Source: Clostridium sp.
Lineage (GTDB): Bacteria; Bacillota; Clostridia; Clostridiales; Clostridiaceae
NCBI GenBank assembly: GCA_030626065.1
Contig: DAOUPR010000002.1
Coordinates: forward strand, 1-37,235
Direction of reading: 5' to 3'
Length of the DNA: 37,235 nucleotides
Part shown: positions 47 to 32,812 of the stretch, piece after piece
How positions within the stretch are numbered: the stretch's first letter is position 1
Layout: each line of letters begins with the position of its first letter
The notes under the pieces: model-generated
Databases searched by the model: none
What the model was told of the DNA's origin: nothing
What the model saw: only the letters and a program-made list of their open reading frames with translations
Translations under genes and position numbers: made by a program

Positions 47-1006
47 ATGGAGAAGATATTTGATATAGTGACTTTTGGAGAAAGTATGGTTTTGTTTAAT
101 CCGGATAGTGCAGGTCCTTTAAAATATGTAGATGGATTTACTAAATCTATAGGTGGTGCAGAATCTAATGTAGCTATAGCTCTATCTAAGCTATGACATA
201 AAGTTGGCTGGTTCTCTAAACTTGGGGATGATGCCTTTGGTAGATATATTCTTTCAGTTATTAGAGGTGAAGGTGTAGATGTATCAAGAGTAGTATTTGA
301 TGAAGAACACAGTACTGGAATTTTATTTAAAGAAAGATTTGAACACGCAAATCCTAATGTGTATTATTATAGAAAAAATACTGCAGCAAGTAATCTTCAA
401 TGGAAAGATATTGATGAAGAGTATATTAAAGCATCAAAAATTCTTCATATTACAGGAATTACTCCTGCTATATCAGAAAGTTGTAGAGAGTCTGTTTTTA
501 AGGCAATTAAAGTAGCTAAAGAAAATAATGTTTTAGTATCTTTTGATCCAAATATTAGATTGAAATTGTGGAATGAGGAAATAGCTAGAGATGTTATTTT
601 AGAAATAGCAAGTAATGCAGATATAATGTTGCCAGGTGTTGATGAAGGAGAATTACTTTTTGGAACAAAGGACTCTGAAAAAATAGCAGAAGAATTTATT
701 GGGTTAGGTTGTAAGATTGTAGCCGTGAAACTTGGTAAAAAAGGATGTTATGTAACTGATTCTAATGAGAAAGTATATGTTGATGGCTATCCAGTTGAAA
801 GAGTTGAAGATACTGTAGGAGCTGGAGATGGTTTTGCAGCAGGATTCTTGTCAGGTTACCTAAGAAATTTATCATTAAGAGATTGTGCTAAACAAGGAAA
901 TGGAGTAGGTGCAATGGCTGTTCTTGTAAAAGGCGATATGGAGGGGTATCCGGATATGGACCAACTTAATGACTTTATTGGAGTAACTAAGTCAATAGAA
1001 AGATAA
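47..1006 (+). pseudogene. kdgK: PfkB-family sugar kinase, likely 2-keto-3-deoxygluconate kinase, interrupted by in-frame TGA at 194-196
   Basis: Frame from ATG 47: MEKIFDIVTFGESMVLFNPDSAGPLKYVDGFTKSIGGAESNVAIALSKL*HKVGWFSKLGDDAFGRYI... and ending in the VGAGDGFAAGF PfkB signature; one stop at codon 50, rest intact. Confidence 0.85.
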
Positions 1007-1184: not shown

Positions 1185-1262
1185 GACAATGCACAATTCA
1201 GAATTCACAATGCACAATGCACAATTTAGGAGATTTTTTAGCGGAGCTAAAAAATTTTTAAT
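1185..1262. repeat. Palindromic intergenic repeat, copy 1 (half element)
   Basis: CACAATGCACAATGCACAATTTAGGA followed by ATTTTTTAGCGGAGCTAAAAAATTT, which is shared exactly with the copy at 22.6 kb. Confidence 0.8.
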
Positions 1263-1844: not shown

Positions 1845-1903
1845 CATTTGGTTGACAAAATAATATGTTTTATGATAAATTTATAATATAACAATTGTAT
1901 ATA

Positions 1904-1997
1904 GAATACAGGGGAGTTGGATATTGGCCAATTGAGAGTAAGAACCTATTCTTAGACCCTCGACCTGATCTGGATAATGCCAGCGTAGGTAGTTGTA
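1904..1997 (+). ncRNA. TPP riboswitch aptamer (THI element)
   Basis: ACAGGGGAG...TGAGA...ACCCT..ACCTGATCTGGATAATGCCAGCGTAGG matches the conserved THI core. Confidence 0.92.
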
Positions 1998-2126
1998 GCA
2001 ATATAGAGTTAAATGATTAACCTTGCTAAACAATGCGGTGAAAATGTTTAACTTTCCTTTATAGTCCAAACTATAAAGTAGAAATGTAATTTATTTACAT
2101 ATTTATTATTATGTAAAGTTGTGCTC

Positions 2127-2158
2127 AAAACATAAATCGCTGAGGTTTGTGTTTTTTT
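2127..2158 (+). terminator. Intrinsic terminator downstream of the TPP aptamer
   Basis: AAACATAAATC-GCTGA-GGTTTGTGTTT (11 pairs with G-U) followed by a T-run. Confidence 0.75.
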
Positions 2159-2790
2159 ATTGTCTAAAAAAGTATATTTTAATGGAAATTAAATATTCAT
2201 TAGATATTGATAGATGGATTTATTATTTTCAAGCATAGAAAAAAAGTATCTCCACTTATGTGGAGATAAAAATATTGAAAGATAAGGGAAGGAACATTTG
2301 TACAAGTTTCTAGAAATATGAATGCAAAATAAGCAATGTGATATACTAATAACTTTCTTATATGTATAATTTTATCATAATAAAATTGAATTCTAAACAT
2401 TGAAATAGCCTATTAAAAATGAGTATGGCTTACTAATAAAGAAGTAATTGAACTAGAAGAGAAAAAACAGTAGAATACTGAATGTTATGAATATTTTTAC
2501 AATTTATAAATTATTTGAATTGTTAAAAAGATGGGTGAATAATTAATGCAAACACTTGTTCAGTTAGATGGATATTAATGAAAAAACAAATAAAATCATC
2601 CATAGAATTTATTGTTAGTAGATAATTTTAATTTTACTTTATCAAAAATATTGTAAATAGCGAATATTTCTATTACAAGTATGAATAAAATATTATAAAG
2701 GTAATGTTTTACATGATTTTAATATTAATAAACTGTAATATAAATGAAACTCTGATATTATATAAAGTATAGAATAGAATGGAGGGGACT

Positions 2791-3990
2791 ATGGGGAAGA
2801 AAGTAAGGTTGGCAAGTTACTCATTTCATCGATTAGCAAAGGTTACTTTAGGAAAATATCTTAAAAAAAGGTACCAAATATCTATTAATAATGAAGATGT
2901 TAAGGGGTTGAAACCTCCATATTTAATTTTACCTAATCATGTGAATAACTGGGATCCTTTTATGGTAAGTGTTTTTATGGACAACCCAATTCATTGGGTT
3001 GCATCAGATGAACAATTTAGAAATCCAATTAAAGCTTGCTTACTGCGAAATTTAGCAGGTGCTATACCAAAAACGAAAAATAAATCAGATATGGATACTG
3101 TTAGAACCATACTTAAGATCAAGAAAATGAATGGTGTAATAGGTGTATTCCCGGAAGGGGCGAGATGTTGGCAAGGAGCAACACGGCCACTTGTGTATTC
3201 AACAGCTAAATTGGCTAAGTCTTTAAAGGTACCGGTTGTTACTGTGCTTATAAAAGGTGGTTATATGAGTAAGCCTAGATGGGCATCTAGTACAAGAATA
3301 GGGAAGATGGAAATTGATTATAAAATAGCATTAACACCTGAAGAAACAAAGAAGTTGTCTATAGAAGAAATCTATAATGAATTGACTGAAAAATTAGAAT
3401 ATGACGAATATCAAGAAAAGAATATTAGCAAAATACCATTCAAAGGTAAAAGACTTGCTGAATACTTGGAAAAATATCTTTTTATATGTCCAGAATGTAA
3501 GAAAATAGCTTGCTTAGAATCTAAAAATGATGTGTTTTATTGTAAAGAATGTGGCTATAGCGTTAAATATAATGAATATGGATTTTTTGAGAAAAAAAAT
3601 GGAGAATTGTATTTTCAATATCCTGGTAAGTGGGACCAGTGGCAACTTTCTTATTTTAAGGATGTATTTGAAAAAATAAAAGAGAAAAATAAAAAAGATA
3701 ATATAATTGAAGATAAGGATGTAAGGTTATTTGTTGGAGAGAGAATGAAACCTTTAATTAAAAAGGAGCATGGGAATTTTATTATAAATAAAGATGGCGT
3801 GGAATTTATAGGAAATTCAGGGGATGTTATTAGTTTTAAGGTGAATAGAATATTAGGTATTAATGTAGTTTTAAATAGAGAATTTGAATTTTACTACGAG
3901 GAGGTTCTCTATAGATTTAAGTTTAATAGTCCAAGAGTGTCACCTTATAAATGGGTGGAATGTATTAAGGCAATGCACAATGCACAATGA
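2791..3990 (+). CDS. PlsC-like 1-acyl-glycerol-3-phosphate acyltransferase with zinc-ribbon region (CPECKK...CKECG)
   Basis: NHVNNWDPF (HX4D-type) and FPEGARCW motifs; RBS GGAGGGG before ATG 2791. Confidence 0.82.
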   Translation: MGKKVRLASYSFHRLAKVTLGKYLKKRYQISINNEDVKGLKPPYLILPNHVNNWDPFMVSVFMDNPIHWVASDEQFRNPIKACLLRNLAGAIPKTKNKSDMDTVRTILKIKKMNGVIGVFPEGARCWQGATRPLVYSTAKLAKSLKVPVVTVLIKGGYMSKPRWASSTRIGKMEIDYKIALTPEETKKLSIEEIYNELTEKLEYDEYQEKNISKIPFKGKRLAEYLEKYLFICPECKKIACLESKNDVFYCKECGYSVKYNEYGFFEKKNGELYFQYPGKWDQWQLSYFKDVFEKIKEKNKKDNIIEDKDVRLFVGERMKPLIKKEHGNFIINKDGVEFIGNSGDVISFKVNRILGINVVLNREFEFYYEEVLYRFKFNSPRVSPYKWVECIKAMHNAQ

Positions 3991-4250
3991 ACAATGAACA
4001 ATGAACAATGAACAATGAACAATGCACAATGCACAATGTACAATGCACAATCAAAAGATAAAAGATAAGAGATAAAAGATAAAAGATAAAGCATAAAGCA
4101 TAATGAACAGAATAAACAGTATAGAAGATGATTAGCAGAGTGCAATTAATGATGATTTTTTTCCTTTGGGTAAGAAAATCTTTAACTAAATAGTCGATTT
4201 TGCGTAACAAAATCATCCGGAATTGCAAATTGCTAATTGAAAATTAGAAA
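3971..4250. repeat. Palindromic intergenic repeat, copy 2, with 11 tandem heptamers (GNACAAT) at 3975-4051
   Basis: GCACAATx2 GAACAATx5 GCACAATx2 GTACAAT GCACAAT; then AAAAGATAA-type tandem repeats; then two inner hairpins and a GCAAATTGC-type right end. Confidence 0.8.
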
Positions 4251-5818: not shown

Positions 5819-5985
5819 TGGATAACAGTATTTTTAGAAAGGTTCAATACCTTTCTAAAAATACTATAATTTACGATGATTTCCTTTGTATATCTAAGAC
5901 TCTTTAATTAATTTAAAGACTTCTGAAGAATGAGCAGGTCATCTATCACTGCACTCTGCAAATTGCACTTTGTACTCTTTTTTAT
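5750..5985. repeat. Palindromic intergenic repeat, copy 3
   Basis: ATGTGCAATTTACAGTGCACAATTTAAT left end; 17-bp perfect hairpin 5827-5865; GATGATTTCC...TTTAATTAATTTAAA...GGTCATCTATC; CACTGCACTCTGCAAATTGCACTTTG right end. Confidence 0.7.
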
Positions 5986-7472
5986 TACAAGTTATATATT
6001 TCTTTATATTTATTATTTAAATATTCAATGAAGTACTTAGCCTTAAGTTCTTCACCAGTTATGATTTTAATCAAGTGGGCTGGTTTATAAATTGATCCAT
6101 GTTTATGAACATTTTCTTTAAGCCAGTTGTGGATATCTGTTAAGTTACCTTTTTCGATTTGTGTATAAAAATCAGGAATATCTTTTTTCATTTTATTTAA
6201 CATCTGTGCTCCATATAAATTACCTAGGGCATAACTTGGGAAATAACCAAAGCTTCCATCGGCCCAATGCATATCTTGAAGAACCCCTTCACTATCAGTA
6301 GGAGGTTCTATACCTAGGTATTCTTTATATTTTTTATTCCACATTTCAGGTAAATCTTTTACTTCTAATTCATCATTCATAAGCATTTTCTCAAGTTCAT
6401 ATCTTATAATAATATGAAGAGAGTAAGTAAGTTCATCTGCTTCAACTCTTATAAGAGACGGTTCTACATAATTAATTCCTCTATAAAATGTTTCAAGATC
6501 AATATTTTTGAATTCAGGGAATGTTTTTTGAGCTTCAGGGTAGAAAGAGCTCCAAAATTCTTTTGATCTACCTACTATATTTTCATAAAATCTTGATTGA
6601 GATTCGTGTATCCCCATAGATACACCTTCTCCAAGAAGAGTTCCTTTAAGTTCGTCAGGAATATCTTGTTCATATAAAGCATGACCACCTTCATGAACAC
6701 AGCTATAAAAGGCTGGTCTAAAATCATCTTCATAATAATGAGTAGTTATTCTAACATCTTTATTGCAGAATTGAGTTGTGAATGGGTGAGTTGATTCATC
6801 TATTCTACCCATACTTTCATAATCATATTCCATATGTTTTAAAACATATTTTGAAAATTCCTCTTGTTTTTCTTTTGGAAAATGACCGTTAAAAAATGAT
6901 ACATCAGGTTTAGTTCCAGAAAGCTTAATTTTATTTAAAAGTTCAACTATGCCGTCTCTTAGTTCAGAAAACACTTCATCTAGTTTTTTAACAGTAATTC
7001 CTGGTTCATACATATCAAGCAAGGTATTATATTTGTTTTCTTCATAGCCTAAATAATCAACAAATTTCTTTTTATAATCGATCATCTTCTGTAAGTGAGG
7101 AGCATAAATATTAAAATTGTTACTATCCTTTGACTCTTCCCAAGCAGCCATTGAATTAGAAGAATCTATAGTATATTGAGTGTATAATTCTTCAGGAATT
7201 TTTTTAGTTTCATTATAGTCTTTTTCGCATTTATCCACCATTGCTTTTGTAACAGTATCTAAATTATCTTCTTTTTTCAAATATTCAATATAGCTAAGCA
7301 TTTCATCTGATGTTATTAATTTATATAGTTCTCCTGATAAATAACCTAAAACTTCGCCTCTGTAAGCTTTACCCTGTTTAGGGGTATTGACCATTTCATC
7401 CCAGCCAAGTACCGCAATGGAACTATTTAAATACTCTATTTTCTTTATGTATTCTTTGAAACTATTAAGCAT
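5985..7472 (-). CDS. M32 family metallocarboxypeptidase
   Basis: HEGGHALYEQ (HEXXH), HESQSRFYEN and DELTYSLHIIIRYELEK motifs; GGAGTG RBS before MLNSFKEY. Confidence 0.92.
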   Translation of the reverse strand: MLNSFKEYIKKIEYLNSSIAVLGWDEMVNTPKQGKAYRGEVLGYLSGELYKLITSDEMLSYIEYLKKEDNLDTVTKAMVDKCEKDYNETKKIPEELYTQYTIDSSNSMAAWEESKDSNNFNIYAPHLQKMIDYKKKFVDYLGYEENKYNTLLDMYEPGITVKKLDEVFSELRDGIVELLNKIKLSGTKPDVSFFNGHFPKEKQEEFSKYVLKHMEYDYESMGRIDESTHPFTTQFCNKDVRITTHYYEDDFRPAFYSCVHEGGHALYEQDIPDELKGTLLGEGVSMGIHESQSRFYENIVGRSKEFWSSFYPEAQKTFPEFKNIDLETFYRGINYVEPSLIRVEADELTYSLHIIIRYELEKMLMNDELEVKDLPEMWNKKYKEYLGIEPPTDSEGVLQDMHWADGSFGYFPSYALGNLYGAQMLNKMKKDIPDFYTQIEKGNLTDIHNWLKENVHKHGSIYKPAHLIKIITGEELKAKYFIEYLNNKYKEIYNL

Positions 7473-7730
7473 AAAAAACACTCCTTTTTAAAAAATATTA
7501 AATGTATTGTAAAAATTAACGCGTGTAAATACAATTATACATTAGCAAGCTTTATTTATAAATAATAATTTAGAAAATAATACTATTTATAGGATTTCTA
7601 GTTTAACTATTTATGTATATAATAATCATCTTAATAATCTACCTTTACTATAAGATTATTGATATAATTAATTGAAAAGATTTTTTATTGTATAGGAAAG
7701 TATATTTTTCTTTCCTATGTAATAAAAAAA

Positions 7731-17392: not shown

Positions 17393-17550
17393 TGTAGATA
17401 GGGTAAAAAAATATATAAAAGATAAAAATTATCTATAAAATATTAGAAAAATATAGTAATATTAATAGTGAGTCATAAAGTGAAAAGGTTTTCTAAGAAG
17501 TTTAGATATAGATTATAAAAGGATTTATATTCATATAAATATAGATAAAA

Positions 17551-17626
17551 AATATATAAGTAAATATATAAGTAAATATATAAGTAAATATATAAGTAAA
17601 TATATAAGTAAATATATAAGTAAATA
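17551..17626 (+). repeat. 12-bp tandem repeat (AAATATATAAGT), six copies
   Basis: Direct reading; ends at the RBS of the GNAT gene. Confidence 0.95.
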
Positions 17627-19042: not shown

Positions 19043-19211
19043 AATGCACAATGGATGAAGTGAAGTCTTAGTATGCAATTTGCAATGTTCAATGAAGGAA
19101 GATTTTCTTCCTTCGTTAGGAAATCTTTGATATAATTAAAGAAATATTTTAGTTCTGCTAAAATATTTAATCATTAATTGTGCATTGTAAATTGTGCATT
19201 GTGCATTGAAT
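19043..19211. repeat. Palindromic intergenic repeat, copy 6
   Basis: ATGCACAATG...GCAATTTGCAATGTTCAATG; GAAGGAAG-ATTTT-CTTCCTTC; AAATATTTTAG-TTCTG-CTAAAATATTT; ATTGTGCATTGTAAATTGTGCATTGTGCATTG. Confidence 0.85.
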
Positions 19212-22551: not shown

Positions 22552-22773
22552 TAAGGCACAATGCACAATGCACAATGCACAATTAAGGATGAAATTTTTT
22601 AGCGGAGCTAAAAAATTTCTCTAACTATTTTAAAAATTAAAGATTAATTGATATTCAATAGTAATTTGAAATTATTTTAAATTGCATTAGTTGTTTTATA
22701 AATTAAAGATTTTCTGACCAAGGTGAAGAAAATCATCCATAATTGTGCATTGATAATTGTGCATTGTGAATTT
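22552..22773. repeat. Palindromic intergenic repeat, copy 7 (near full length)
   Basis: GCACAATGCACAATGCACAATGCACAATTAAGGATG...ATTTTTTAGCGGAGCTAAAAAATTT...AATTAAAGATTTTCTGACCAAGGTGAAGAAAATCATCCATAATTGTGCATTGATAATTGTGCATTGTG. Confidence 0.88.
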
Positions 22774-32592: not shown

Positions 32593-32812
32593 AGCAATGC
32601 ACAATTGAAAGATTAAAAGATTAAAAGATTAAAAGATTAAAAGATTAAAAGATTACTAAAGAAATGTGCAATTAGCAATTTGCAATGTGCAATTAAGGAA
32701 GATTCTCGACCGAGGTCGAGAATCTTTGAATTATTTAAATTAATTAAAGATTTTCTGACCAAGGGAAGAAAATAATCCTTAATTGTGCATCGTGCATTGT
32801 GCATTGTGCATT
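32593..32812. repeat. Palindromic intergenic repeat, copy 11 (full), carrying 6 x GATTAAAA tandem repeat (32611-32654) and a 13-bp CTCGACC hairpin
   Basis: GCAATGCACAATTG...GCAATTAGCAATTTGCAATGTGCAATTAAGG, AAGATTCTCGACC-GA-GGTCGAGAATCTT, AATTAAAGATTTTCTGACCAAGGGAAGAAAATAATCCTTAATTGTGCATCGTGCATTGTGCATTGTGCATT. Confidence 0.9.

Follow-up and report, generated by a model that had tools for sequence, protein, structure and literature searches.

The TPP aptamer described here is probably a vestigial riboswitch of the thiD type, stranded by loss of its operon. It lies in a window of 37,235 nt, the whole stretch of DNA analysed (Clostridium sp. GCA_030626065.1, contig DAOUPR010000002.1, positions 1–37,235, forward strand), which comes from a draft assembly of 2.85 Mb in 309 contigs, 80% complete. 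At genus level this genome stands alone among those compared, its SecA reaching no more than 74% identity with SecA from the other genera searched. A covariance-model scan, the check proposed at the outset, places the element above the gathering score for RF00059 (Table 1), near the bottom among about 150 matches listed; no other Rfam match reaches its cut-off anywhere in the window. The original prediction of an orphan TPP riboswitch is correct as a description: the aptamer is real, and no thi gene lies downstream.

Table 1 Features of the orphan leader and the following gene, in window coordinates
Feature	Position	Strand	Details
Promoter-like site	1852–1881	+	TTGACA, 18-nt spacer, TAAATT; TG one base before (extended -10)
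TPP (THI element) aptamer	1900–2008	+	RF00059, 56.6 bits, gathering score 54.3, E 1.2e-8
U replacing C of CUGAGA	1932	+	At the foot of P3; G-C pair becomes G-U
U replacing purine after GUAGG	1990	+	Purine in 97/97 related aptamers
Enlarged linker with AT-rich hairpins	2009–2126	+	Aptamer–terminator distance; single copy in genome
Intrinsic-terminator-like hairpin	2127–2158	+	AAAACAUAAAUC-GCUGA-GGUUUGUGUUUU and U-run, predicted -10.8 kcal/mol
Possible remnant of thiD C-terminus	2167–2247	+	KKYILMEIKYSLDIDRWIYYFQA*KKS versus ThiD KQYITTAIKHSLDIGHGVGPTNHFYELYKKA of G023
Acyltransferase	2791–3990	+	PF01553; ATG at 2791, GGAGGGG upstream

To call the aptamer core intact, as was done from first inspection, overstates the case. 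Its strands read UUGAGA and GUAGGUA, with two near-invariant bases altered: among 97 related aptamers the position of U1932 holds C in 93, T in three and A in one, and U1990 has no counterpart (Table 1).

The nearest DNA relatives of the leader precede thiamine-salvage genes—the thiW-thiD leader of G020 (L035, 88% identity) and the thiD leaders of G023 (L034, 86%), G025 (L036, 85%) and G006 (L037, 81%), that of G023 being also the top-ranked aptamer relative. Leaders of thiD, thiM-thiE, tenA and thiW rank next, and there are no ThiC or ECF-type leaders among the top DNA matches. This ranking points to a salvage-operon origin, and the orphan leader, judged by its sequence relatives, probably once led such an operon.

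Its present surroundings are quite different. The next plus-strand gene is the acyltransferase, which begins 632 nt past the terminator end, much as first estimated (about 630 nt), and the intervening DNA holds no credible coding sequence, there being no plus-strand ORFs of at least 40 amino acids within 2021–2778. For comparison we surveyed 104 further TPP loci in genomes of the same family, taking the first ORF of at least 70 amino acids after 99 of them and classing these by BLAST against representatives that had been identified by eye. All 99 sampled leaders have their first ORF within about 425 nt, and 91 of these ORFs count as thiamine-type genes. By BLAST, 89 fall into classes of this type: 27 ECF-type membrane proteins, 16 ThiC, 15 ThiD, 8 ThiW, 7 TenA, 5 ThiS/F, 3 ThiE, 3 ThiM, 3 MTH1187 and 2 ABC permeases. 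Three more are ambiguous (two TatD-like, one ATPase), and the remaining seven, read by eye, comprise two ThiS, one AIR-synthase-like and one PurF-like protein, and three out-of-frame artefacts. A leader with no gene for 632 nt past its terminator is an outlier. At locus L171 (G019:C43), about 97 nt separate a TPP aptamer near the start from the gene after it, which by eye reads as a PurF-like glutamine amidotransferase; AIR is an intermediate common to purine and HMP synthesis.

The comparison of syntenic loci that had been suggested was carried out, via the upstream VOC protein, the intergenic DNA and the acyltransferase; it found no relative with the same synteny in which the ancestral arrangement could be seen intact. 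The VOC protein itself has no close match in 208 family genomes. The acyltransferase carries a zinc-ribbon-like CPECKK..CKECG stretch at its C-terminus, and its frame ends (..MHNAQ) within a 7-base tandem array. Such arrays, of ACAATGC and variants on either strand, are mostly intergenic and recur through the window (1186–1226, 3971–4051, 19177–19208, 22556–22583, 22739–22772 and 32782–32812), with the motif found also on contig C188; a perfect 12-base tandem repeat, AAATATATAAGT in 6.4 copies, lies between genes at 17550–17626. Towards the start of the window (47–1006, plus strand) a single TGA at 194–196 breaks the frame of a PfkB-family sugar kinase, which scores 225 bits against PF00294 if the stop is ignored; this is either a pseudogene or a sequencing error.

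The predicted TTGACA is present at 1852, in a promoter-like site with 10 of 12 matches, but such sites are common here and this one is weak evidence alone, since 37 were found against 30.8 expected by chance; in the related leader L035, TTGACT...TATGAT precedes the aptamer. The anticipated terminator is likewise found, as an AT-rich hairpin with a U-run (Table 1) predicted to form with a probability of 0.99 in the full transcript, though too G+C-poor to be picked up by a simple terminator scan. It is without the aptamer-complementary arm or loop that related leaders have. The stretch that separates it from the aptamer has grown: GCGUAGG and the terminator lie 143 nt apart, against 28–61 nt in 13 related leaders. 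This linker shows no conservation across the 208 family genomes, and no second copy of it was found in the genome.

Transcriptional OFF riboswitches usually work by exchange between an antiterminator and a terminator (PMC2258182), and the related thiD and thiW-thiD leaders are standard attenuators of this kind, the aptamer 3′ strand pairing with the terminator 5′ arm. We assessed this coupling in transcripts ending before the terminator 3′ arm, scoring the pairing of the terminator 5′ half with the aptamer 3′ strand (GUAGGAAGUUGUUU and variants) in the orphan leader and 14 related ones. The antiterminator pairing probability is 0.00 in the orphan and 0.10–0.75 in the 14 relatives. As an isolated duplex, the antiterminator reaches -6.9 to -16.9 kcal/mol in 13 relatives (p at most 0.05 on shuffling in 8 of the 13), versus -5.7 kcal/mol in the orphan, where p is 0.69. 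Forcing the aptamer helices gives a structure 4.8 kcal/mol above the minimum-energy fold, with an identical terminator hairpin in both. On this evidence the folding models make the terminator of the orphan leader uncoupled from its aptamer: with the antiterminator pairing gone, the hairpin is predicted to form whether the aptamer is folded or unfolded. A new switch, in which 2043–2058 pairs over the aptamer 5′ half as in the minimum-energy fold, was considered and rejected; the pairing is no better than in shuffled sequences (404/1000), and the terminator is present in either state.

Immediately past the terminator, a short stretch resembles the end of ThiD when conceptually translated; it lies in frame on the correct strand, and its best match is the protein from G023. 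With this one pre-ranked query on the plus strand, the similarity is equalled by 9 of 2,000 shuffles (0.5%); with five ThiD queries and both strands, by 41 of 1,000. In real sequence of this genome, 13 of 342 chunks (4%) equal it, at least one of them probably a genuine kinase homologue. A profile HMM built from 17 ThiD proteins gives no significant match on 2159–2790, and gapped nucleotide alignment for a thiD remnant is dominated by AT-rich noise (80/500 shuffles). Taken as sequence similarity, these comparisons weakly suggest that the stretch may be a remnant of the thiD C-terminus. Remnants of ThiW, ThiM, ThiE, CytX and TenA sought in the intergenic region are unconvincing (p 0.07 for TenA, at least 0.14 for the others). 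Adjoining this stretch on the minus strand, a leftward terminator-like hairpin (2247–2268) has no minus-strand gene before it, and may mark where a further lost gene once ended.

Elsewhere in the 80%-complete assembly there is no match to ThiC or ThiE, and neither ThiM nor ThiD was found: the sole PF02110 match lies in a 529-aa frame that reads as an NnrD-like protein, and the sole PF08543 match above cut-off (57 bits) reads as a pyridoxal-kinase-like gene adjoining an ECF-type membrane gene. Given this completeness, missing thi enzymes may sit in unsequenced parts, and their absence is supportive rather than proof. Thiamine pyrophosphokinase is present (117.6 bits). The genome has two TPP matches, the second being an ordinary leader with a terminator on contig C188, ahead of an operon encoding, in order, an MTH1187-type thiamine-binding protein, an ABC permease, an NMT1-like solute-binding protein and an ATPase (the last two identified by inspection of their sequences). 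ABC transporters of this type often carry pyrimidine precursors.

Three options had been put forward—a deleted target gene, a standalone short transcript, or control of something unrecognised. Deletion of the regulated gene fits best, because the nearest leaders are those of thiD and thiW, the salvage enzymes were not found and the coupling is lost; nothing positive was obtained for a standalone role or for control of the acyltransferase. The ancestor would have controlled a thiamine-salvage operon by transcription attenuation, the operon holding thiD and perhaps also thiW, thiM and thiE. That operon would have been lost, probably through a deletion reaching from the terminator to at least the end of thiD; the lineage now appears to take up thiamine and to phosphorylate it via the pyrophosphokinase. 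Drift and linker growth would then have destroyed the antiterminator, so that termination should be TPP-independent; an RNA of about 270 nt is still expected, because promoter, most of the aptamer and terminator hairpin remain. We infer the operon deletion, the production of RNA, the constitutive termination and the absence of a present function. Several points speak against a vestige: the missing enzymes may sit in unsequenced parts, the thiD-like tail is weak, no syntenic relative was found, the retained C188 transporter would make most sense with ThiD present, and the aptamer still scores above the Rfam curated cut-off.

Among the alternatives, a standalone TPP-binding small RNA, which would run from the 1852 promoter to 2158 and either work in trans or serve as a TPP sink, by analogy with SreA/SreB, appears unlikely. 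Promoter-like site, near-complete aptamer and terminator are together self-contained, the RNA of 271 nt folds better than shuffled versions of it (z -3.0), and trans-acting terminated riboswitches have precedent (PMC8079631), but the linker is unconserved across the 208 family genomes, its alternative pairing with the aptamer is at chance level and the aptamer core bases are unusual. That the leader was kept after operon loss as a free-standing TPP-sensing RNA of ~270 nt, regulating transcripts in trans, is slightly less likely still. It is very unlikely that TPP-dependent termination controls the acyltransferase across a 632-nt untranslated stretch. The two share a strand, and the terminator scan finds no plus-strand terminator between 2158 and 2791; against such control stand the missing antiterminator pairing, a terminator predicted in both aptamer states and the closer spacing of gene and leader throughout the family sample. 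Moreover, the only good relative of the acyltransferase in a scan of reference genomes (36% identity, L077, in a Peptococcaceae MAG) has no TPP match in the surrounding 13 kb.

An assembly or binning artefact, with the contig made of two unrelated pieces and the real thi operon following the leader elsewhere, would be compatible with a fragmented, incomplete draft and with intergenic sequence that is unique and has no relative for comparison. A false join after 2158 leaves the linker growth, lost pairing and base changes unexplained, and no contig has a matching thiD; we regard this reading as highly improbable. Least probable of all is that the target of the leader is a short peptide or RNA, as yet unrecognised, within 2159–2778, for which position alone speaks, against the lack there of a plus-strand ORF of at least 40 amino acids, of any Rfam match and of conservation. 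Antisense control was also considered and set aside, there being no nearby minus-strand gene (the first is at 5985–7481).

The find is thus ordinary, and probably vestigial, within a known class. If the vestigial reading is true, a riboswitch has been caught decaying after gene loss, its terminator coupling gone and its aptamer still recognisable by covariance, which cautions against taking an aptamer match by itself as evidence of regulation. Should the RNA instead prove to be expressed and to bind TPP, the locus would provide a rare example of a free-standing TPP sensor made of RNA.

The four closest thiD and thiW-thiD leaders, with aptamer DNA 81–88% identical, share the aptamer–terminator order and a similar terminator 3′ arm (GGUUUGUGUUUUUU); the orphan differs from them in having no thi gene, a longer linker, no antiterminator complementarity and two changed near-invariant aptamer bases. 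Clostridioides difficile, as described in PMC11477304, has three TPP riboswitches, before thiD-thiM-thiE, a thiC operon and an ABC transporter. The two leaders of the Clostridium sp. genome match the thiD and ABC-transporter types of that account, with the difference that the thiD-type leader has no genes and ThiC was not found in the assembly. The same source places an orphan c-di-GMP riboswitch between CD2517 and CD2517.1, likewise a known class without a recognised target, though for another ligand (PMC11477304). The Listeria RNAs SreA and SreB are terminated SAM riboswitches that act in trans (PMC8079631). By analogy, the orphan TPP leader would also be expected to yield a short terminated riboswitch RNA; SreA differs in that it also regulates the operon that follows it and acts in trans on a known target (PMC8079631), none being evident for the orphan leader.
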